Shown here: piece by piece, positions 3,677-19,895 of the stretch | Layout of the letters: every line of letters starts with the position of its first letter | Numbering within the stretch: the first letter of the stretch is position 1 | IMG/VR virus record: IMGVR_UViG_3300033153_008243 | Coordinates: 1-33,127 of that record | DNA: 33,127 nt | DNA from: a virus | Strand: one strand, 5' to 3' | Made by a program: the position numbers and the translations under genes | Notes under the pieces: model-generated | The model's database searches: none | What the model was told of the DNA's origin: nothing | The model's input: only the letters and a program-made list of their open reading frames with translations

Positions 3677-4462
3677 TTAGTCCTCATCAGCCGACACCTT
3701 CTTGATGCGCCGCACGGCGGCGCGGAAGTACTTGCGGTCCTTCTCGATGCCGACAAACCTCCGGTCGTGCTGCACACACGCGACGCCGGTGGTGCCGTGT
3801 CCCATGAAAATGTCGGCGACGATGTGGCCTGAGTCGCTGTACGTTTGCACCAGCCAGGCCATCAAGTCGACGGGCTTTTGGGTTGGGTGCTGGCCCTTGG
3901 CTCGTCGGTTCGCGAACTGCAAGACACTGCGCGGATGACGCCGGCCATCCGAGTGGGTTACGATGCCTTGCCGCCGGGTTAAACCCCAGTTCGACGAGAC
4001 GCCGGTCTGCCTGGCGGTATACGGCTTGCCCTCGGTCATCTGTGGGTTGTAGACCGAGCCGGTGAATTTCTTGGCGAAAATCTGGACGTGCTCGTGTGAT
4101 CGCAGCGGCCGCTTCCGGACGTTGAGGAAGCCGGTCGGCGCAGTCTTGTGCCAGATGAGCTCGTACCGCCACTCGGGGCGATTGGCGCTGATCAGTTCGG
4201 TAGTGAACGTCTGCTGGCAGCAGACAGCGATGATGGCTTCGAGCTTGCGCAACCGGTCCATGAAGTACCACCAGACCGGCACGGGAATCGGTCTGTCCCA
4301 TGCGTTGGCGGTGCAACCAAATGGCGGGTCGGTGATCACGGCGTCGAAGATCCCGGCCGGCAGCCGCGGCATGATGTCCAGGCAGTCGCCGCGGTAGAGC
4401 TTGACCTGGTCGGTCTCGAAGTCCGCCGGAGGGCACTTGTTCCATAATCGTGTGGCGGCCAT
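3677..4462 (-). CDS. DNA methyltransferase (N4-cytosine/N6-adenine type)
   Basis: 261 aa. It transfers a methyl group from S-adenosylmethionine to an exocyclic amine of a DNA base. The catalytic motif DPPF is at 45-48, after the strand KLYRGDCLDIMPRLP, and the SAM-binding motif FMGHGTTG is at 219-226, preceded by HPTQKPVDLMAWLV. This motif order places it in the beta-type class, with target recognition in the middle (about 95-185). ATG 4462 was chosen because GAGG sits six bases before it. An ATG at 4466 is in a shadow frame. No restriction partner is adjacent, so it is an orphan enzyme, typically used by phages to protect their DNA from host restriction or to adjust early expression. Target sequence unknown. 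Confidence 0.9.
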   Translation of the reverse strand: MAATRLWNKCPPADFETDQVKLYRGDCLDIMPRLPAGIFDAVITDPPFGCTANAWDRPIPVPVWWYFMDRLRKLEAIIAVCCQQTFTTELISANRPEWRYELIWHKTAPTGFLNVRKRPLRSHEHVQIFAKKFTGSVYNPQMTEGKPYTARQTGVSSNWGLTRRQGIVTHSDGRRHPRSVLQFANRRAKGQHPTQKPVDLMAWLVQTYSDSGHIVADIFMGHGTTGVACVQHDRRFVGIEKDRKYFRAAVRRIKKVSADED

Positions 4463-4594
4463 CCATGGCCTCAAAACTCCGTTACGATTACATTCCGTGT
4501 ACTGCAGTGGGCGGCGTGCAAAATACCACCGGGGTGCATCCCGATGGCGTTCCGGGTAAACCGTTACGTCCCGGCGCGCCGTCCTTGTTTTCAT

Positions 4595-5098
4595 CTATCC
4601 AAACGCATAGCGCGTGTTGCACTCCTTCGACTGCTTCTTCCTCCTGAAACCGATCAGCATATTGATCGCCTGGCTGGCCATCTTGCTCGTGGCCAGGCCG
4701 TCGATCGTGTCGACGCCGAAATGCGTCTGCAGGAAACTCGTCAGCAGCGACCGCGACCAGCCGAGCTCGCTTGCCAACGCGCGAATAAGACTGCGTTGCT
4801 CCGGCGTGATCATCCGCGTGACGCCGTCGCGTTTCGGCCGGCCGTGGCGCTCGCGCGTTTTTTTGTCCGTCAACGGCTTGAGCTTTTCGAGTGAATCGCT
4901 CAGCGCGTGAAGCTGTCTTGCCGAGCAATCCTTCATTGACGTTTTGCCGAATCGCTCTCGAATCGCAAAATGCAAGTTCTCCTTGATCTGCTCCTGAGAG
5001 CCTGGAATCGTATCCCTCGCGAGTGCCCACACGCGCGCGTTGGCTTTACGCCATAGCGGCTTGCGAACGTCGTAATCACGCTGGCCGCCCGGCGTCAT
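4595..5098 (-). CDS. gemA: GemA-like regulatory protein (Mu gp16, DUF1018)
   Basis: 167 aa, starting at ATG 5098 in an ATGA overlap with the upstream ATPase. GKTSMKDCSARQLHALSDSLEKL (52-74) and ITPEQRSLIRALASELGWSRSLLTSFLQTHFGVDTIDGLATSKMASQAINML (97-148) match the two-part layout of DUF1018 proteins. In Mu the homologue GemA modulates host gene expression and lies downstream of A and B, the same position as here. The N-terminal basic part (KPLWRKANARVWALARD) also fits. A 132-base gap without a gene separates it from the methyltransferase. Confidence 0.8.
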   Translation of the reverse strand: MTPGGQRDYDVRKPLWRKANARVWALARDTIPGSQEQIKENLHFAIRERFGKTSMKDCSARQLHALSDSLEKLKPLTDKKTRERHGRPKRDGVTRMITPEQRSLIRALASELGWSRSLLTSFLQTHFGVDTIDGLATSKMASQAINMLIGFRRKKQSKECNTRYAFG

Positions 5099-6270
5099 GC
5101 GGTCGCTACCTTTCGTTGCTGGTGCTTGAGAAACTGTTCGATCTGATAGCTGATCGCCTCGACGTAGTCTTGATCGCGGGCGAAATAGTTGGCCTGCTTC
5201 AGGTGTTCCGACGTGATTCGCTCGTCGGGGAACGCCGTGACGGCTAACTGGAAGACCTGGGCGGCGTAACGCAGGCCACCGTTTTCTTCCTGGCCGTCGA
5301 ACGCGGTCAGATTGGCCAGCGCACATAGCCAGCGGCCGGCGTCGGCACTGAAGCGAACCTCAAAGGTTTTGAGCACTTTAACGACGTCGTCGAGGCTGAA
5401 CAGCCAGTGGTGCGGGTCTTTCGTGTCGAACTTCAGCATCAGGTCGCGTTCGATCAGAATGCGACCGCGTAACGAGCCGCCGATGGCCCGCGATCGGGTT
5501 GTGCGCTTGAGCGTTTCGCGCAACTGCGGCCGGCCGATCAGGACGATCGGGCAGTGGGTTTTGTCGTGCAGATGGCGGATCAGGTCGAGCGTATCCATGG
5601 ACAGGATGTCCGCCTCGTCAACCAGAATCAGGCGAGCGCTCGTGCCGAGACGTTCTTTGAGCAGATTGAAGGCGTTGGACCGTGACCGGATCGAGTAGGG
5701 CATCGTCCGGCCGGTGTAGATCTGCCCCAACAACGCCTTGCAGAACGCCAGCGGCTTGCTGCTGCCGGGGTCTGCCCGGACCAGCAAGCCGTGTCGAGCA
5801 TGGGCTTGAATGTACGCTTCGGCGGCCATCGACTTGCCGACGCCCGAGGCGCAGTAGATCACGCCGATCGCCCTGTTCTTCTCGACCAGCTTGATCAACT
5901 TGAAGATCTCGATCGCGATCGACGTCTCGGTGAACGTGGACGAGTTCGGTGCGTCGTTCGATCGCAGCCAGGCGTTGACCCAGTCTTCGATCTTGGCGAT
6001 CTTCTCTGTGACGTCGCCTTTGTAGCGGAGGCTGAGCAGTTCGCTGATCGTCGACGGCGCGATGCCGGTTCCGTGGGCCAACTGCTTGCGTGTCACGTCG
6101 TAAAGGCCGAGGAAATCCTTGATGCTGTCCACGGCGATCGCGACGTCCGCGCTGTTGAGTTGCTTTCCTGGTTTCGCCATCCTTGGCCATCTCCCTGTTC
6201 GAGCGTCTTGCTCGATACCGCGTGAAAACTCGTCTGACGGCCCGGGGCCGCCGTTCCGTTCGTCTGTCAT
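5095..6270 (-). CDS. MuB-type AAA+ transposition ATPase
   Basis: 391 aa. It is expected to bind DNA with ATP, select target DNA and stimulate the transposase. A helix-turn-helix lies at about 61-80 (RKQLAHGTGIAPSTISELLS), Walker A is CASGVGKS at 140-147 and Walker B LILVDEAD at 214-221, followed by a sensor-like VLIGRPQLRETLKR. This is longer than Mu B (312 aa), mostly because of the N-terminus. ATG 6270 overlaps the transposase stop as ATGA, implying coupled translation. An internal ATG at codon 31 with GGGAG upstream is an alternative that removes a charged tail. The 3' end overlaps the GemA-like gene, also as ATGA. Confidence 0.9.
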   Translation of the reverse strand: MTDERNGGPGPSDEFSRGIEQDARTGRWPRMAKPGKQLNSADVAIAVDSIKDFLGLYDVTRKQLAHGTGIAPSTISELLSLRYKGDVTEKIAKIEDWVNAWLRSNDAPNSSTFTETSIAIEIFKLIKLVEKNRAIGVIYCASGVGKSMAAEAYIQAHARHGLLVRADPGSSKPLAFCKALLGQIYTGRTMPYSIRSRSNAFNLLKERLGTSARLILVDEADILSMDTLDLIRHLHDKTHCPIVLIGRPQLRETLKRTTRSRAIGGSLRGRILIERDLMLKFDTKDPHHWLFSLDDVVKVLKTFEVRFSADAGRWLCALANLTAFDGQEENGGLRYAAQVFQLAVTAFPDERITSEHLKQANYFARDQDYVEAISYQIEQFLKHQQRKVATA

Positions 6271-8096
6271 GGGTCCAGCCTGTCAAGATCTGGGAGAACG
6301 TCGAACCGGTCCGTGGTGTCGACGACCTCATCCAACAGGTGGTCGAGCGCATCCAGGCTCGGCATACTCGCAACGGGTTCGGCAGGTTGAAGTAACCGCT
6401 GGTTGAATTTATCGATCGCTTCGGTGAAGTCGCTGCGCAGCGGTGTCACGTTGCGTGGCGCGACGTCTTCGGTGCCGGTGGCGGCGAGTTGTTGTTCCTG
6501 TCGTCGCTGTCCCTCGGCGTGGCGGGCACGGATGGCCGCTTCGGTTACGTCCTGGCCGGAGGGCTTCAGGCCGCCTTGCCTCACCGACTTGGCGAGCTCG
6601 CGAGCCTTCTTACGCCGCTTCATGCCGTCTTTGACGTGCTCTTGTGTTACGCCGTGCATGGCCAGGCGGTTGTTGGTCGCCTTGCAGATCGGCTTGCCGT
6701 CCAGGTCGCAGACGACGACGAACGAGGCGTCCTCGGGATGGACGCGGAGCAATACCTCGTTGCCCTGCAACGGCATCAGGTGCGCGTTGCCGACGCCGTA
6801 CTCGATTGACTGGTAGCGCACACCGTTGCACATCACTTTGACCGGCCGGGTGGTGCGCATGAGCAACACATCCAACGCGCCTTCGGGCGCGATCGCTCGC
6901 GGGATCGGGTTGAACTGATCGAACGCCTGGCGTGGCGACAGGTTGTTCATCTCGTAACCGCGATGCGGTATGGCGTGGTACGTCTCGGCCCACCGGTCGA
7001 GCGAGGCGGCGAACTCGGCCACCGTCGGGCACCTGTCCGGGTGCTGCTTCGCAAACTTGGCGGCATGCCGGAACAGGTCGTCTTTTTCGCCGCCGCAATA
7101 GCTCTCGTAAGTGGCGGCGAACTGAAGATCCAGCGTGCGAAACCATCGCTCGATCGGCTTGGAGTCCGGGTTAAACGGAATCGAGAAGTGTACAGCGACA
7201 TTCAGCCCACCGAACACGCTGCGCATGTAATCCTCGTCAAACCTCGCTTCGGCCTGGCGGATCGGTCCGCCGCTCGGCCGCCCGCCGGAGACGCCGCGCG
7301 ACCGATACGGCTTGCCGTTGTCGAGGATCGCATGATGGGGTGAGCCGTATTGCTCGACGCCCTTACGAAAGGCGATCAGCACCGTGTCGGAGTTTTCCGA
7401 CAAGCAGACGCACCGGCCAACGTTCATGCGCGATCGCATATCGAGGAATGCGCTGATCAGTGGGCGAATGATCGTCGGGTCGGCGTCGGACTTACGGCAA
7501 AAGACATCAGCCTTCTTGAAGTCGCCGACCCACCATTCGTTCGAGCGCATCTTCGTGTAATCACGGCGGAGTTTCGGGCCGTATTTGCGGTGCCACTGAC
7601 GCTGACCGAGACGAAAATAGTTGGCGTGGAACGGCGGCAATTCTCGCTGGACCTTTCGCTGAATCGTTCGCAACGCCGAAAACGACCAATGGTGCTCGGC
7701 CGCTTCGGCGGCGACGATCTGATAACACAGGGTGACCGGTCGCCTTTGGATCGTGAGGTAAAGTTGCTTGAACCGCTCCCACGCGTCGGGGTCAACGGGG
7801 TCGGGTGCGGCATTTCGAACGGCCGTCGAACGGCCGTCGAGAAGGGCGGCCATGCCGCCCTCGGTCAGTTGCCGATGCCAGCGATAGAGCGTGCGGGCCG
7901 TGATATCCGAATGCGCGGCCAGGAACACTTTTGTCGCATCGGCCTTGGTCCGGTCGGCGGCCTTGAAGTCGTCGCACATGCGCCGCCACGACTCGACGAT
8001 CGCTTTGCGCCTGCCGGCCAGGCGGAGCTGCTCGTCGGAAATCCCGTCGAGCGGCTCGGGTTTGAGCTGAACGGTCTGGCGGGGTAGAGCGGTCAT
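6267..8096 (-). CDS. MuA-type DDE transposase
   Basis: 609 aa, close to Mu A (663 aa). It would cut the phage ends and join them to target DNA during integration and replicative transposition. In order: a helix-turn-helix region (about 50-90, ending ARTLYRWHRQLTEGGMAALL), the RNase H-like catalytic core with Asp at about 192 (WWVGDFKKADVF), Asp at about 259 (AILDNGKPY) and Glu at about 316 (DSKPIERWF), then the Mu-type C-terminal beta-barrel (about 420-490) and a charged tail that would contact the ATPase. The D-67-D-57-E spacing almost equals MuA (67 and 56). An adjacent TTG at 8099 is an alternative start. GAGGG, which overlaps the preceding gene's stop, serves as ribosome site. Confidence 0.95.
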   Translation of the reverse strand: MTALPRQTVQLKPEPLDGISDEQLRLAGRRKAIVESWRRMCDDFKAADRTKADATKVFLAAHSDITARTLYRWHRQLTEGGMAALLDGRSTAVRNAAPDPVDPDAWERFKQLYLTIQRRPVTLCYQIVAAEAAEHHWSFSALRTIQRKVQRELPPFHANYFRLGQRQWHRKYGPKLRRDYTKMRSNEWWVGDFKKADVFCRKSDADPTIIRPLISAFLDMRSRMNVGRCVCLSENSDTVLIAFRKGVEQYGSPHHAILDNGKPYRSRGVSGGRPSGGPIRQAEARFDEDYMRSVFGGLNVAVHFSIPFNPDSKPIERWFRTLDLQFAATYESYCGGEKDDLFRHAAKFAKQHPDRCPTVAEFAASLDRWAETYHAIPHRGYEMNNLSPRQAFDQFNPIPRAIAPEGALDVLLMRTTRPVKVMCNGVRYQSIEYGVGNAHLMPLQGNEVLLRVHPEDASFVVVCDLDGKPICKATNNRLAMHGVTQEHVKDGMKRRKKARELAKSVRQGGLKPSGQDVTEAAIRARHAEGQRRQEQQLAATGTEDVAPRNVTPLRSDFTEAIDKFNQRLLQPAEPVASMPSLDALDHLLDEVVDTTDRFDVLPDLDRLDP

Positions 8097-8470: not shown

Positions 8471-8980
8471 CTATCCCGTGGCCCTCTCTGTTTCGTCCCG
8501 CCAGGCGATCATCGCCCGGTTGGCCTTGGCCAACAGCTTCACGGCGCTGTTGGACCGCTCCATGAAGCCGGCGATCGCCGTGTCATCGGATTCGTCAACA
8601 CGGCCGTCGCGGACGATCTGCTCGACGTAGCGTGTTGCTGCCGTACACGCTTCGAGCACACTGAGCAACTCGGGGAGTAGTTGCTTTGGGTCGCCGGGCG
8701 GCGGTGTGCGAGTCGGCCGGTTTTTCCGCTTCAGTGTCGCCGATTCGGCCAGTTGGGCCGCTACGCCTGGCGCGATGAGCTCGACCAGTCGCAGGTCGCC
8801 GGTGGCATGGAACATCGAACGGACAAACTTGATCGTCGCGCGGCGATCGCCGTTTTCGACGGCGTTGATCTGACTGGTGGAGTAACCCATACACCGCGAC
8901 AGCGATTCGAGCTTGATGTTGTTGCTCAAGCGGACTTCCCGGATGACTTCATTGGCAAATGGCATTGGTTTCGATTTCAT
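8471..8980 (-). CDS. XRE-type helix-turn-helix protein
   Basis: 169 aa from ATG 8980. Residues 8-60 form an HTH: EVIREVRLSNNIKLESLSRCMGYSTSQINAVENGDRRATIKFVRSMFHATG, with the recognition helix at STSQINAVENG. The C-terminal part is helical (LLPELLSVLEACTAATRYVEQIV; FMERSNSAVKLLAKANRAMIAW), suggesting a dimer. Because it lies within the early operon, co-directional with the transposase, it may be a Ner/Cro-like regulator or a second repressor. The ribosome site is weak (GGACG). An upstream TTG extension of 13 residues has no support. Confidence 0.75.
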   Translation of the reverse strand: MKSKPMPFANEVIREVRLSNNIKLESLSRCMGYSTSQINAVENGDRRATIKFVRSMFHATGDLRLVELIAPGVAAQLAESATLKRKNRPTRTPPPGDPKQLLPELLSVLEACTAATRYVEQIVRDGRVDESDDTAIAGFMERSNSAVKLLAKANRAMIAWRDETERATG

Positions 8981-9045
8981 CTGTCGCGTCCGTGCGTTAT
9001 GAGGAAAGAACCGCAGCAAATCCCTTTACTGCGGACACGTCTGTG

Positions 9046-9854: not shown

Positions 9855-10082
9855 CTAGGCAGACTGTCGACGACCTTGCGGTGATCGGCTGCCTTTGGGG
9901 CACTTCGCGGCCCGACTGAGCCGCTGTGCGCGTCGGCAAGCGAGGATGTGCATGACCTCCTGGCGTGAAGGTGTGACGCCCTCCTGGGCTTTGGCTTCGG
10001 CCGTGCGGATCTGATCGATCAGCTGAAGCGTTATATCCCACACTTTCACGGGTCGGCCCATCTTGGTGCTTCGCTTTGCCAT
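9855..10082 (-). CDS. Small basic first early gene, possible regulator
   Basis: 75 aa from ATG 10082. It begins MAKRSTKMGRPVKVWDITLQLIDQIRTAEAKAQEG, followed by VTPSRQEVMHILACRRAQRL and a basic tail (KCPKGSRSPQGRRQ). Its place as first leftward gene is like that of ner in Mu, but no clear HTH is seen. It lacks a ribosome site. The proposed promoter would begin transcription within about three bases of the ATG, so the message may be leaderless. An ATG 28 codons further upstream crosses the operator region and is unlikely. Confidence 0.6.
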   Translation of the reverse strand: MAKRSTKMGRPVKVWDITLQLIDQIRTAEAKAQEGVTPSRQEVMHILACRRAQRLSRAAKCPKGSRSPQGRRQSA

Positions 10083-10091
10083 GATTACTAG

Positions 10092-10120
10092 AAGGTAACC
10101 TGCGACACGGTCCGAGTCAA
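10092..10120 (-). promoter_or_regulatory. Candidate early leftward promoter
   Basis: On the minus strand, TTGACT (10120-10115) and TACCTT (10097-10092) are separated by 17 bases. The -35 box matches consensus at five of six positions and the -10 at its three most conserved positions. Initiation would fall near 10085, about three bases before ATG 10082. The dyad at 10109-10124 covers the -35 box. Confidence 0.5.
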
Positions 10121-10182
10121 GACCTTTTAGAAGGAAAAGGTCTGGAATGAGACTTTGCGGTGCCATAAGGTCCGGTCTAGAC
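10109..10182. promoter_or_regulatory. Three operator-like dyads spaced exactly 30 bp
   Basis: GGTC-N8-GACC begins at 10109 (GGTCCGAGTCAAGACC), GGTC-N8-GACT at 10139 (GGTCTGGAATGAGACT) and GGTC-N7-GAC at 10169 (GGTCCGGTCTAGAC). Left edges are 30 bp apart, about three helical turns, so bound proteins would line up on one face. A separate perfect 9-bp inverted repeat, AGACCTTTT/AAAAGGTCT (10120-10143), joins the first two. The outer sites cover the -35 of the leftward and the -10 of the rightward promoter, an arrangement expected for a lysogeny switch. Confidence 0.6.
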
Positions 10183-10183
10183 T
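10155..10183 (+). promoter_or_regulatory. Candidate rightward promoter of the regulator gene
   Basis: TTGCGG (10155-10160), 17 bases, TAGACT (10178-10183). Initiation seven bases on would be at 10190, the G of the GTG start codon, predicting a leaderless message like that of lambda cI from its maintenance promoter. The -35 is weak, and the third dyad overlaps the -10. Confidence 0.4.
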
Positions 10184-10189
10184 GAAGTT

Positions 10190-10456
10190 GTGGACGAAAA
10201 GAAAAAATTCGGCCCGAACCTATCAGTAGAGGTGGTCGACGGTTTTGGCGTGTTCTGTGCGAGAAACATCCTCATTCGCGGTAGAGCGGCTGAGGCTGCC
10301 CTTCGCATGTTTCAGGCCGCACCGGTTGACGTGCGCGATCTAGCTATGAGACAAGAGTTTGATGAACTTCAGGAGGTGCTGGATGAGGCGGCCCGAAAAA
10401 TCGCCTCAGATCGGATCGCGCAGATGGGGAAAGCAAAGAAACGAGGCCGTCGATAA
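10190..10456 (+). CDS. Candidate regulator of the divergent switch, unknown fold
   Basis: 88 aa from GTG 10190, no ribosome site (only GAAG directly upstream). It begins MDEKKKFGPNLSVEVVDGFGVFCARNILIRGRAAEAALRMFQ, followed by a long charged helix (MRQEFDELQEVLDEAARKIASDRIAQM) and a basic end (KKRGRR). No classical HTH is visible; the basic tail and helix are compatible with DNA binding or dimerisation. It is the only gene driven rightward from the three-dyad region, where Mu-like phages keep the repressor. Identification as repressor is position-based. Confidence 0.55.
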   Translation: MDEKKKFGPNLSVEVVDGFGVFCARNILIRGRAAEAALRMFQAAPVDVRDLAMRQEFDELQEVLDEAARKIASDRIAQMGKAKKRGRR

Positions 10457-10547: not shown

Positions 10548-10762
10548 GACCCAGCCCCTTTGGAAAAGCAGCCGCCCGCCGAATCGCGTCCGTGCGAAAA
10601 GATTCCCTGGCCGTCGGCGGTGGATAACTCGGCATCGGCATCAACCGATGGCTTATACGATCCTAGCGGGAATCAGTTTCGATTCAAGCCCCAAAATGTA
10701 GGTGGTCGACACACTGGAGACACAAGGTCAAAATTTGACACCCCCACAGAGAGGTGGTTGTG

Positions 10763-11875
10763 ATGACGATGACTCATAAGTCGTGGTGGGCGTTTATGCT
10801 GCTCGTACTGTGGGTGCTTGTGGCAACCGGCCAGGCCACCGGGGGCGACGGCGCCCCGGCAAGCCAGCCAGCCGCTGGGCCAGAATCTTTCGAATTTACG
10901 CCTCCGGATTTCATGGATCGGCTCCGGAAAATCCGGAGTGAGTATTCCTCCGCTGTTGGGCAATACCTTGCGATTACAGCATGGGAAGAGAGCAGCCCAA
11001 GCCGGGTTCAATGGCGGCGGTGGTTTGGAAAGTACAAGAAACGGCTGGTCGCAGAGAATGCGGACGTGCAGCTCTGGCACAGTGTGCAGCAAGGGCTCGT
11101 TCCACCACCAGAGAAGAGGAACTGGCTTGCGGACTCGCACGGGTTTCGGCTGAATAGTCATGCAGCCTTGGGCATCCTGTGGGAGCTTGGGAATGATTGT
11201 GTATGGCGGGGCGCACACTGTCTTCGTCTCAGAAGAATGTTATGGCAGGACCTCGAACAACGGATGGAAACATACTTGGCCTGGATGGAAAAATGCTATG
11301 GAAACTCGACGCGGACAACGCGTCTCAAGATGCGCGCTGCATGGGCTGTGGCGGCATGGGAGAGGGTAGGCGGTACAGCGTCGTCAGCTTCCGACAAAGG
11401 AGGCGGCAATGGTCGGGAGCAGCGGCCGCTTGGTAACGCGACCGAGAGTACTCCGCAAGAAAGCAAGTCCGCGCAGCGGGACGGCGAGGCTGTGGGCGGG
11501 AACGACGAGGGCGATGTTGGCTTCCTGGAGGGGATAGCTGATATATTCGACGCCATCGCGCGTGAAGCGGAGAGAGCCCGCACGGAAGAGGCGAAAAAGG
11601 TCGAAGTGGTCAACTGGCATAGTAAGAAGTCGGGCGACAAATACTTGGTGATGGGGGAAGTGCAGAACACGCACACGGAGCCGGCAATAGCATTCAGCAT
11701 TCTTGTTTTCGTTCAGGGGGTGCGCGACGGGCGGCCGCTGGATGTGCATGATGCTCGGTTCGACATAGCTCTGAATCCGGGCCAGAAGTCGCCGTTTACG
11801 GTCGCCGTTCCCGTGAAGCCGGGCACCCATTTTGAGGTGATTTCTCTGGGGTATTTCGAGCAATCCCCAGAATAG
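10763..11875 (+). CDS. Secreted protein with C-terminal FxLYD-like domain, probable cargo
   Basis: 370 aa. ATG 10763 is preceded by GAGAGG at eight bases; GTG 10754 is a weaker alternative. The N-terminus (KSWWAFMLLVLWVLVATGQA) is a signal peptide, followed by an APASQPAAGPE linker typical of exported planctomycete proteins. Residues about 50-205 are helical and Trp-rich. A disordered Gly/Ser/Glu stretch (about 205-250) precedes a beta domain (290-365) with KYLVMGEVQNTHTEPAIAFSILVFVQ and a closing NPGQKSPFTVAVPV, the pattern of FxLYD/DUF3426-type domains seen in envelope proteins. It sits between the switch and the lysis genes with its own surroundings, and its codon usage is less GC-rich than neighbours, suggesting acquired cargo. 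Confidence 0.7.
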   Translation: MTMTHKSWWAFMLLVLWVLVATGQATGGDGAPASQPAAGPESFEFTPPDFMDRLRKIRSEYSSAVGQYLAITAWEESSPSRVQWRRWFGKYKKRLVAENADVQLWHSVQQGLVPPPEKRNWLADSHGFRLNSHAALGILWELGNDCVWRGAHCLRLRRMLWQDLEQRMETYLAWMEKCYGNSTRTTRLKMRAAWAVAAWERVGGTASSASDKGGGNGREQRPLGNATESTPQESKSAQRDGEAVGGNDEGDVGFLEGIADIFDAIAREAERARTEEAKKVEVVNWHSKKSGDKYLVMGEVQNTHTEPAIAFSILVFVQGVRDGRPLDVHDARFDIALNPGQKSPFTVAVPVKPGTHFEVISLGYFEQSPE

Positions 11876-16325: not shown

Positions 16326-18733
16326 TGATCGACGCTCGGAAAACCCTGCACCGGATCGTCGCCTCGGCCCGTAGGGCCGCGTCCGCGTTCGTGCGGCCCG
16401 AGTCCGGACAGATTATCTGGCCTGAGAAAACAGACCTTGACCGCGACTACGTCACCGCCGGCCTGACGCCGACGAAGCTCGTGTCGGTTCTCAAAGACTT
16501 TGATGATGGCGACCTGGCCAGCGGCTTGAACTTGATCGAAGAGATTGAGGAGAAGGACACGCATATAGGCAGCGTCGCCGCCACGAGACGCATCGCACTG
16601 ACGGGGTTGCCGTGGGAGATCGTTAGCGCCGCCGATGTACGCGACATCGAAGATCGAACGCGGGCCGACAAGGCCGCCGATTACTGTCGTGAAGTGTTGA
16701 CCGACCTCGACTCGTTTGACGCGGTCTTGCCGCATCTGGCGTTGGGCATTGGGCGAAGCATTTCCGTTGCCGAACTGGTCTGGGAGGACAGTCGGCTGGC
16801 CAACATCGTCCCGGTACTCGGCAGTCGCCTGAATTACGACACCGCCGGCGACGCGCCCGAGCTTCGCATCTTGACCAAAGACGAATCGTCGCGCGGCGTG
16901 GCGATGGAGCCGAACAAGTGGATTATCCACACGCCGCACAACGTCAGCGGCTTGCCGACGCGCGGCGGCCTGCTGCGCATGACCGCGGCGTGCTACCTGG
17001 CCAAAGCGCTCAGCTTGAAAAGCTGGATGATCTTCCTTGAAGTATTCGGCATGCCGGTCCGCGTCGCTCGATACGAGCCGACCGCCAGCAAAGATGAAAA
17101 GATCGCACTGCTCAAGATGCTGCAAAGCCTCGGCACCGATGCCGCCGGCGTTTTCTCCAAGGCGGTCGATCTGGAGTTCATCGAAACGAAGTTGCAGGGG
17201 GAGTTGCCGTTCGAACGCGCGGCCAAGTTCTTCAACGCCGAAGCATCGAAGGCCTGGCTCGGCCAAACACTGACCACCGAACAGGGCGACCGCGGTTCGC
17301 AGGCGCTCGGCCGGGTACACAACGAAGTGCGCGAAGATCTTCGCGATGAAGACATCGCCGCCGAGGGGCGAACCATTCGCAACGACCTACTCCGCCCGCT
17401 GGTCGAAGGTGAGTTCGGTACCGACGTGGTCGTGCCGTATTTCCGCCGGCGGGTCGAAGGGGCCAGCGATGTCCGCGAGTTGACCGACGTGGTCGACAAG
17501 ATGGTGAACAACCTCGGCCTGCTGGTCGATCGTCACTGGTTCGCGACCGAGGTCGGGATCAAACTGACGGACGACGAAGACGACGCGCTCAAGCCAACTA
17601 AGCCCGCATCGCCATTCGACGGCCTGTCGTTGAGCGATCGAACGCGACTCGTGCTCAAGGATCGTGACACCGAAACGCCTGAGACGGCTGACACGTTCGA
17701 CGTCGCCGAAGAGTACGCTGACGAGGCGACAAATGAAGCGGACAGTCTGTTCGGCCCGCTGGTCGAACAGGTGCAAGGCTGGTTCGCGAAAGCCACCGAC
17801 GACACACCGGCGGCGTCGCTGCACCCGGTGCTGATCGATCGTATCCCACAGATGGGCGTGGCGAGCATTGGATCGCTGGCGGACGTAACGCGGTCGCTGA
17901 TGCTCGCATCCAACCTGCTCGGCCGCCTGGCCGTCAAGGAAGCATTCGAGCGTCATTCGTCACGACGCGTTCTGGCCGAAGCGGCGCCGATCGAACGACT
18001 GCCGTTCGAAGCGGCGGTCGCGGCGCTCCGGCAACGCGTGGCGATTCCGACGCCGGCGTTCCGGCGGCTCGGCGCCGAAGCCCAGGCCCGCGCGTTCACC
18101 GTTGCGCGTATCGCCAGCATTCGACTCATCAGCGATATCCATGACGCCATCGTCCAGGCGGTTGAAGCCGGCGAGACCGGTCACGAGTTCCGCCGCCGAC
18201 TTCCGCAAGTGCTTCAGAATAACGGCTGGCTCGGGATGCGAAGTTGGCACGCCGACCTGATCTTCCGCCAGCAGAGCGCGATGGCGTACTCGGCCGGCCG
18301 TTACACGCAGATGCGGGAGGTCGGCATCACGCACTGGCGGTATTCGGCGTTGCGCGACAGTCGGACGCGACCGACGCACGCGGCGCTCGACGGCAAGATC
18401 TTCGCGATGGGCGATCGACGCTTTTATCCGCCTTGGGAATTCCAGTGTCGATGCGTGGCCGAGCCGATGTTCGACGACGAACTGCCCGGCGAAACCATTG
18501 ATAGGTCCAACGCTTTGGTTGGACAACGGTTCGGGACCGACGCGAACACCGGCGAGCCGCTCACCTTCCCCTTGCGGGGGCAAGGGTTCCGGTTCGACCC
18601 CACACAGTTTGCCAACATCGAGCCGTTGCGACTTGACTCGGTCGACAATCCGCAGCTACGCGAAGCGTTCCGGTTGCTGCTGAACGCGGAGAACATTGCG
18701 TACATCGACGACGAAGGAGACGCAAGTGAGTGA
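16325..18733 (+). CDS. Portal fused to F-like head morphogenesis protein
   Basis: 802 aa from ATG 16325. Residues about 1-450 are a DUF935 portal (Mu gp29 type): ITGLTPTKLVSVLKD-like start, VSVAELVW, MEPNKWIIHTPHNVSG, LKSWMIFLEVFGMPVRVARY, ending with VPYFRRR. A long acidic linker (about 450-510) joins it to an SPP1 gp7/Mu F-type domain (about 570-780) with the signature WRYSALRDSRTRPTHAALDGK and YPPWEFQCRCVAEP. In Mu these two are separate genes (gp29 and gp30). No stop or frameshift is seen, so the single chain is real. The 3' end overlaps the protease gene by eight bases. Confidence 0.85.
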   Translation: MIDARKTLHRIVASARRAASAFVRPESGQIIWPEKTDLDRDYVTAGLTPTKLVSVLKDFDDGDLASGLNLIEEIEEKDTHIGSVAATRRIALTGLPWEIVSAADVRDIEDRTRADKAADYCREVLTDLDSFDAVLPHLALGIGRSISVAELVWEDSRLANIVPVLGSRLNYDTAGDAPELRILTKDESSRGVAMEPNKWIIHTPHNVSGLPTRGGLLRMTAACYLAKALSLKSWMIFLEVFGMPVRVARYEPTASKDEKIALLKMLQSLGTDAAGVFSKAVDLEFIETKLQGELPFERAAKFFNAEASKAWLGQTLTTEQGDRGSQALGRVHNEVREDLRDEDIAAEGRTIRNDLLRPLVEGEFGTDVVVPYFRRRVEGASDVRELTDVVDKMVNNLGLLVDRHWFATEVGIKLTDDEDDALKPTKPASPFDGLSLSDRTRLVLKDRDTETPETADTFDVAEEYADEATNEADSLFGPLVEQVQGWFAKATDDTPAASLHPVLIDRIPQMGVASIGSLADVTRSLMLASNLLGRLAVKEAFERHSSRRVLAEAAPIERLPFEAAVAALRQRVAIPTPAFRRLGAEAQARAFTVARIASIRLISDIHDAIVQAVEAGETGHEFRRRLPQVLQNNGWLGMRSWHADLIFRQQSAMAYSAGRYTQMREVGITHWRYSALRDSRTRPTHAALDGKIFAMGDRRFYPPWEFQCRCVAEPMFDDELPGETIDRSNALVGQRFGTDANTGEPLTFPLRGQGFRFDPTQFANIEPLRLDSVDNPQLREAFRLLLNAENIAYIDDEGDASE

Positions 18734-19895
18734 CACGAGACGACTTGTACTGCTGTGCGATGCCGATCTGCAGTCGGTCCCCAATCGGTTTCAGCTCGTA
18801 CCGTGGGGACACGTCAGAACGGGCAAAGGTGACCTTATCGTCGATGACGGGGCAGCGGCTAATGTCAGTGCCGCCTTCGAGCGTGGGGGTATCGACCTCG
18901 TCGTCGACCTGGAGCATCAAACTCTCGGTGGCCAATATGCTCGGTCGGATGGTGCGGCACCCGCGCAGGGATGGATTCGAGGTTTGGAGGTGATTCCCGG
19001 TGATGGCATTTACGCCCACGTCGACTGGACGCCTGAAGGCCGAGAACGATTGGCTTCACGGTCCTACCGCTATTTTTCGCCGGTCTTCATCGTGGACAAG
19101 AAAAGCCGCCGATTGAAGTCGATTCAGAGCTGCGCGCTGACCAACATTCCGGCGATGGAAAGCTGCGGCGCGCTTGTGAATAAGGACGACTCCGCTACGT
19201 CTGAGGATCGGGACGTTACCGATTCGGGCGCGAGCGACATCACGGAAAAGGGAGTTTTCGAGATGAACAAGAAACTGCTTGAGCTGCTCGCGCTCAGCGA
19301 AGATGCGAGCGAGGAGCAGGTCCTGGAGGCCGTCACGGCGCTCAAGGACGAAAAGAACAAGGCGACGGGCAAGTTGACGAAGGTCTGCTCGTCGCTAGGG
19401 GTCGACGCGGACGCATCGACCGAGGACATCGGCGCGAAGGTGTTGGCGTTGAAGTCGCCACTCGACAAGGTGGACGTGTCGAAGGTCGCCATCCTGGAGA
19501 CCAAGGTGGAAGAACAGGCGACTGAGCTCAAGGCGCTCAAGGCGAACGCGGCTGAACGCGACGCCGAAGAGCTGGTCGCCCAGGCGCTCGAGGACGGCAA
19601 GCTCGTTAACGCGCAGCGCGACGAAATGCTCTCCCTGGCGACTGATGATCCGGAGCGATTCAAAAAGATCATCGCCAGCGCGCCGGTGGTCCGACAGCCA
19701 GGCAAGACCGATCCGCCACCCGATGACGGTGCGACCGGTGGCGGCGATCGCAAGACGATCATCACCAAAGCAGGTCGTGAGTACGCCGACAACGCGGCGC
19801 TGCACGCCCTGACGAGCCGAAAGGCGTTCGTCAGCGACGCACTGCGAGAGGCCGGCAAGGACGAACTGTCCGACGAGGAAATCAAGGTACTGTAG
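18726..19895 (+). CDS. Head maturation protease with scaffold tail (Mu I-like)
   Basis: 389 aa from GTG 18726, with AAGGAGA five bases before it. The N-terminal protease part (1-170) has the conserved GIDLVVDLEHQT (His64) and the strand ASRSYRYFSPVF, followed by SCALTNIPAM, as in Mu gpI. The C-terminal 210 residues are acidic and helical, ending SDEEIKVL, and act as scaffold. In Mu, protease I processes the head and its tail Z serves as scaffold. The stop is followed by a 100-base gap before the decoration gene. Confidence 0.8.
   Translation: MSDTRRLVLLCDADLQSVPNRFQLVPWGHVRTGKGDLIVDDGAAANVSAAFERGGIDLVVDLEHQTLGGQYARSDGAAPAQGWIRGLEVIPGDGIYAHVDWTPEGRERLASRSYRYFSPVFIVDKKSRRLKSIQSCALTNIPAMESCGALVNKDDSATSEDRDVTDSGASDITEKGVFEMNKKLLELLALSEDASEEQVLEAVTALKDEKNKATGKLTKVCSSLGVDADASTEDIGAKVLALKSPLDKVDVSKVAILETKVEEQATELKALKANAAERDAEELVAQALEDGKLVNAQRDEMLSLATDDPERFKKIIASAPVVRQPGKTDPPPDDGATGGGDRKTIITKAGREYADNAALHALTSRKAFVSDALREAGKDELSDEEIKVL
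19263..19895 (+). CDS. Nested scaffold protein (Mu Z-like) by internal start
   Basis: 210 aa, in the frame of the protease gene. ATG 19263 is preceded by AAGGGAG with eight bases spacing, and the encoded protein begins MNKKLLELLALSEDASEEQVLEAV, a coiled-coil region. Mu gene Z is likewise nested inside gene I and supplies extra scaffold. Codon 180 of the protease gene is this ATG. Internal initiation is inferred from the ribosome site only. Confidence 0.55.
   Translation: MNKKLLELLALSEDASEEQVLEAVTALKDEKNKATGKLTKVCSSLGVDADASTEDIGAKVLALKSPLDKVDVSKVAILETKVEEQATELKALKANAAERDAEELVAQALEDGKLVNAQRDEMLSLATDDPERFKKIIASAPVVRQPGKTDPPPDDGATGGGDRKTIITKAGREYADNAALHALTSRKAFVSDALREAGKDELSDEEIKVL

Follow-up and report, generated by a model that had tools for sequence, protein, structure and literature searches.

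In phage lambda, the OR region holds three related operators common to two divergent promoters, and CI bound at OR2 activates its own promoter, PRM; the cI mRNA is leaderless. From cI, the lambda order runs on through cro and cII to O and P. The operator region of phage Mu (O1-O3, in the early region between c and ner) also lies between divergent repressor and early promoters, and doubles as a transposition enhancer. In the telomere phages of enterobacteria PY54, N15 and phiKO2, each with recognisable CI and Cro proteins, the switch region is immB. In these immB regions two divergent genes lie about 80-116 bp apart and the operators are 16-bp palindromes; the gap of about 80 bp in N15 and phiKO2 contains three OR sites, and RACE showed PY54 to make leaderless mRNAs from both of its divergent genes, cI and cro (PMC4488713). 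As a kind, a divergent switch with two leaderless mRNAs, which the original prediction for the locus described below had called unusual, is therefore not new.

The locus lies in a stretch of 33,127 bp, referred to here as the window, which is a whole IMG/VR virus record. The genes on either side of the proposed switch, and those that the leftward operon goes on to encode, are as follows.

10190-10456, plus strand: first rightward gene (gene 10190), 88 aa, with a GTG start; an orphan without a ribosome site.
9855-10082, minus strand: first gene of the leftward early operon (gene 9855), 75 aa; no family, no ribosome site.
8471-8983, minus strand: XRE-type HTH protein (8471 protein), CII-like by a weak match, with homologues beside transposase A in four other phages.
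6267-8096, minus strand: Mu-type transposase A (PHROG 310, E 4e-89; Pfam DDE_2, HTH_Tnp_Mu_2 and Mu-transpos_C).
5095-6270, minus strand: Mu B-like AAA ATPase, a transposition protein (PHROG 296, E 3e-39).

Encoding both a Mu-type transposase A and a B-type ATPase in its leftward operon, the virus is a Mu-like transposable phage. The terminase and further rightward genes look structural. Many Phycisphaerae/Planctomycetota loci encode a terminase with 48-58% identity to that of the window, which makes a host from this group most likely, probably a Phycisphaerae-type planctomycete. Two other features of the annotation may be recorded here. The early operon has, at its distal end, a DNA methyltransferase-like gene (3677-4594) weakly similar to genes in loci L168, L178 and others. 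Furthermore, the frame from TTG 18696 (18696-19895, 399 aa) is open whereas that from 18730 has stops, so the choice of start there needs care.

With the Mu early operator region the window shares transposase A and B and putative operators placed between predicted divergent promoters for a repressor position and the early genes. Unlike Mu, it gave no match to the Mu repressor or Ner in profile searches of its proteins, and among PHROG and Pfam profiles its transposase A matched nothing corresponding to Mu's N-terminal enhancer-binding domain; the A match with PHROG 310 starts at profile position 90, while Pfam gives just the gamma subdomain and the catalytic parts. A repressor/Ner pair with operators doubling as enhancer is a trait of Mu itself and is not required of all Mu-like phages. 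The operator cluster described below could also serve as a transposition enhancer that binds the transposase N-terminus, as Mu operators do. The Mu-like character of the phage and the double role of the Mu region speak for this, but the transposase lacks a match to the very domain that would bind, and we consider such a second role quite improbable.

A gap of 107 bp separates the first leftward gene from the first rightward one. Three GGTC-N7/8-GAC dyads begin in it at 10109, 10139 and 10169, exactly where the original prediction had placed them. They mark three putative operators, which are given here in a common orientation (AAGGTCTTGACTCGGAC being read on the minus strand), and a further operator-like site lies to the right.

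10110-10126, minus strand: putative operator O1, AAGGTCTTGACTCGGAC; includes the leftward -35 TTGACT.
10137-10153, plus strand: putative operator O2, AAGGTCTGGAATGAGAC; dyad centre at 10146.5, about -43.5 from the predicted rightward start.
10167-10182, plus strand: putative operator O3, AAGGTCCGGTCTAGAC; overlaps the rightward -10 TAGACT.
10724-10739, plus strand: operator-like site O4, AAGGTCAAAATTTGAC; lies over the -10-like CAAAAT of the promoter-like pair of the next rightward gene.

O2 and O3 are direct repeats. Loose GGTC dyads are fairly frequent in the window, where 19 were found against 14.6 expected, and 292 of 48,649 real 107-bp windows from the compared loci (0.6%) hold three dyads of one word, 125 of them equally spaced. 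These counts, and the weak consensus matches of the predicted promoters, would fit a chance cluster of dyads, with the genes using leadered promoters elsewhere and the leftward gene perhaps starting at ATG 10166. However, the fuller form AAGGTC-N7/8-GAC is about eightfold enriched (four copies in the 33-kb window against 0.53 expected, a count reached in one of 100 shuffles), a figure somewhat flattered because this form was picked after the sites had been seen. All four copies lie in promoter gaps, three of them in the 107-bp gap. In 5000 dinucleotide shuffles the gap never held three dyads of any one word. The leftward frame is open up to ATG 10166 across the dyads, but the extension scores as non-coding, and a clade-wide leaderless signal (below) also argues against leadered promoters elsewhere. 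Chance clustering is thus improbable, and the dyads in the gap are real and non-random.

In addition to being dyads themselves, O1 and O2 form the arms of a larger structure that the original prediction did not include.

10110-10153, not assigned to a strand: large imperfect palindrome joining O1 and O2 (arms 10110-10128 and 10135-10153).

The two 19-nt arms pair at 15 of 19 positions (79%) around a 6-nt centre, and none of 1500 shuffles equalled this. Arms of such length and complementarity with a 6-nt loop could also form an RNA hairpin, acting as a terminator or attenuator in place of DNA operators. This is highly improbable, as no T run follows the palindrome, it is absent from the terminator-like sites found, and a hairpin does not explain the direct repeats O2 and O3; moreover, the palindrome lies upstream of both predicted starts, so that neither mRNA would carry it. 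Considered as DNA sites, the dyads are centred at 10116.5, 10146.5 and 10176, in steps of 30 and 29.5 bp compared with about 24 and 23 bp in lambda. At 10.5 bp per turn these steps are 2.86 and 2.81 turns, so the sites, the outer two included, do not lie on one helical face, and the helical phasing that had been claimed for them is approximate at most.

The outer operators fall on elements of two predicted promoters, O1 over the leftward -35 and O3 over the rightward -10, both with 17-bp spacers, and here the proposed geometry was borne out. Several related putative operators thus lie between predicted divergent promoters and overlap their elements, as in lambda-type switches.

10092-10120, minus strand: predicted leftward promoter PL, TTGACT (10120-10115), N17, TACCTT (10097-10092); 9 nt to ATG 10082.
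10155-10183, plus strand: predicted rightward promoter PR, TTGCGG (10155-10160), N17, TAGACT (10178-10183); 6 nt to GTG 10190.
10706-10734, plus strand: promoter-like TCGACA-N17-CAAAAT upstream of the gene for a secreted-looking protein at about 10763; 0.8 such pairs are expected by chance in 4 kb.

The consensus matches are weak (8/12 for PL, 7/12 for PR), and neither promoter was listed by a standard consensus promoter scan. The chance of an equal match is about 0.05 on the PL side, about 0.21 on the PR side and about 0.008 on both. Further to the right, 10754-11875 encodes a secreted-looking protein with an SQPAAG-type segment. The word GGTGGTCGAC has exactly two copies in the window (0.11 expected): one lies within gene 10190, close to the gene's start (10231-10240), and the other at 10701-10710, where it runs into the -35-like TCGACA of the promoter-like pair before gene 10763.

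As had been predicted, the genes at ATG 10082 and GTG 10190 have no Shine-Dalgarno site, and most other window genes have one. A TANNNT hexamer precedes both starts (TACCTT at 9 nt, TAGACT at 6 nt), so that each shows the leaderless pattern of a -10 at 5-10 nt with no Shine-Dalgarno site. In Phycisphaerae/Planctomycetota DNA related to the window, TANNNT ended 5-10 nt before the start in 23 of 208 non-SD first genes and in 2 of 325 SD genes (Fisher p 2e-8), a contrast that is partly built in because the ribosome site and the -10 compete for the same bases. The peak also exceeds neighbouring positions of the same genes, with at most 10 of 208 in every other 6-nt bin, and a -35 matching at at least four places accompanies 9 of the 23 non-SD TANNNT genes against a 9% background. 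GTG starts are rarer than ATG among these leaderless candidates (3/23). This signal supports leaderless transcripts in the planctomycete clade and, together with relatives of like layout, it supports the earlier placing of the predicted starts at or near the first codons. Both flanking genes are probably read from leaderless mRNAs. Planctomycetes are among the phyla in which non-SD genes show a bias of the leaderless and/or RPS1 type (PMC5397173), and the '-10 next to ORF' leaderless genes of Deinococcus-Thermus resemble the window in having a -10 hexamer just before the start and no ribosome site (PMC12340547); those cases are cellular genes, whereas the window holds a probable phage switch.

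Viral contigs, genomes and phage records yielded no relative near enough for operator conservation to be compared, and no relative in which gene 9855 or gene 10190 is kept. When viral contigs were scanned with the single proteins 10190, A and B, and genome contigs with A, nothing matched. Aligning A against viral contigs returned just three distant A relatives (25-26% identity), and the segment 8400-12000 had no blastn match among phage records. Across 114 genomes, 10190 and 9855 had weak matches (E 1e-3 to 1) that resemble chance hits, given that many have in-frame stops and scores are near noise. Searching viral contigs by pattern, for the palindrome and for 30-bp dyads, picked out 19 contigs, in which most matches fall within ORFs or tandem repeats. 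Only two of the 19 match any tested window protein, and do so weakly (23%, to the portal-like 16319 protein); these contigs were taken as chance.

More distant relatives do keep the layout of a small gene, a gap of 80-110 bp and a repressor, with a CII-like gene followed by the transposase. In L208 and L209, A is followed by small genes (one of them zinc-ribbon-like), an 8471-like gene and one or two further small genes; across a gap of 87-90 bp lies a rightward repressor, which has an HTH in L208 and an HTH plus S24 domain in L209 (PHROG 4, E 5e-22). In L209 a -10-like hexamer precedes each of the two start codons by 6-7 nt and neither gene has a ribosome site, and L208, L166 and L211 have one leaderless-looking side each, judged by eye; gene calls in the relatives came from a simple codon-score caller, so their start choices may be off. 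These four Phycisphaerae Mu-like prophages thus share the window's layout or a leaderless-looking start on one or both sides, but they have their own operators, low protein identity and no detectable homologue of 9855 or 10190. What recurs in relatives is the gene layout, not the operator sequence. The layout is missing from many other loci whose transposase is related, and the control region differs in L165, whose transposase is the closest (50%). The gaps of L208 and L209 hold direct repeats of their own, 20-22 bp or about two turns apart. Those of L209 (6909-6943) are two perfect 14-nt copies of CGAAAAGATGAAAA, 21 bp (two helical turns) apart, and illustrate helical phasing better than the window's dyads. 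Two further observations concern the same loci: the transposases of some relatives (L208, L209) carry an extra N-terminal segment, whereas the window's A apparently lacks the enhancer-binding N-terminus of Mu A, and a signal-peptide-like gene, possibly for lysogenic conversion, lies to the right of the switch in L208, L209 and L211, as it does in the window.

Gene 10190 occupies the place of the relatives' Cro/CI-type HTH or CI-like S24 repressor, and gene 9855 that of their small gene, which in L209 and L178 has a weakly Arc-like repressor match. Neither window protein has a profile match to a DNA-binding family and their AlphaFold models are of low confidence; a ribbon-helix-helix reading of both, made from sequence, was set aside for want of profile support. 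A gene for an HTH (often S24) repressor, as expected on one side of a lambda-type switch, was recognised only in L208 and L209; the 10190 protein of the window has no family. These observations bear on which protein binds the operators. The binder may be the XRE-type 8471 protein or the 9855 protein, acting as an autorepressor of the early operon in the manner of Ner or Cro, with 10190 as an accessory gene; this is a real possibility, although we lean against it. The 8471 protein has a recognisable HTH, the 9855 protein is basic and stands in place of the relatives' small genes, two of them weakly Arc-like, and 10190 lacks a DNA-binding family match. However, the 8471 family weakly matches CII-like activators and its members coexist with a separate CI-like or HTH repressor, which weakens the earlier candidacy of the 8471 protein for the operators, and in L208 and L209 it is the 10190 position that holds the repressor.

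We consider it likely that the gap serves a Mu-like phage, with a Phycisphaerae-type planctomycete as host, as a lambda-like three-operator immunity (lysis-lysogeny) switch, a reading based on the sites, the promoter overlap with N17 spacers, the TANNNT placement, the clade signal and the synteny with L208 and L209. A divergent regulatory region with putative operators overlapping both predicted promoters is supported by the sequence, from which we also infer promoter activity, regulator binding, the identity of the binder and activation from O2. In the proposed immunity switch, one dimeric regulator would bind three copies of a 16-17 bp imperfect palindrome (O1-O3). At O1 it would cover the -35 of the leftward early promoter and block it, and with it the early operon that runs on to the CII-like regulator, transposase A and the B-like protein, whereas at O3 it would cover the -10 of the rightward promoter and block or limit it. 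With O1 and O2 occupied, the early operon would stay silent and the rightward (maintenance) gene might be helped; O3 would limit that gene. The logic is probably lambda-like because the centre of O2 precedes the predicted rightward start by about 43.5 bp, the position from which lambda CI at OR2 activates its promoter. O4 suggests that the same regulator may also limit the next rightward gene, and both first genes would probably be translated from leaderless mRNAs.

The order of genes parallels that of lambda, with a repressor position followed by a small regulator, a CII-like gene and transposition genes, although the flanking proteins of the window are orphans. The window also resembles the immB regions of PY54, N15 and phiKO2 in its divergent pair, intergenic length and palindromic putative operators, but shows no sequence relation to them, and its gap holds three putative operators where PY54 has a single one. 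The three-operator, double leaderless layout thus has good precedents in lambda, N15 and PY54, and what is new here is such a switch on a transposable planctomycete phage together with the orphan proteins beside it.

Within the library of papers searched, nothing turned up on transposable phages together with Planctomycetes. The window offers a concrete immunity switch candidate for transposable phages of Phycisphaerae, and adds sequence evidence for leaderless transcripts in the planctomycete clade. Should the repressor prove to be the orphan 88-aa protein, it would represent a new repressor type. A bolder and unlikely proposal is that the 10190 and 9855 proteins are both new repressor families, different from any known, that share one operator set, and that leaderless first genes, whether on one side or on both, are a recurrent design in planctomycete Mu-like phages. 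If so, the immunity switch of these phages would be linked to the translation of leaderless messages by the host.
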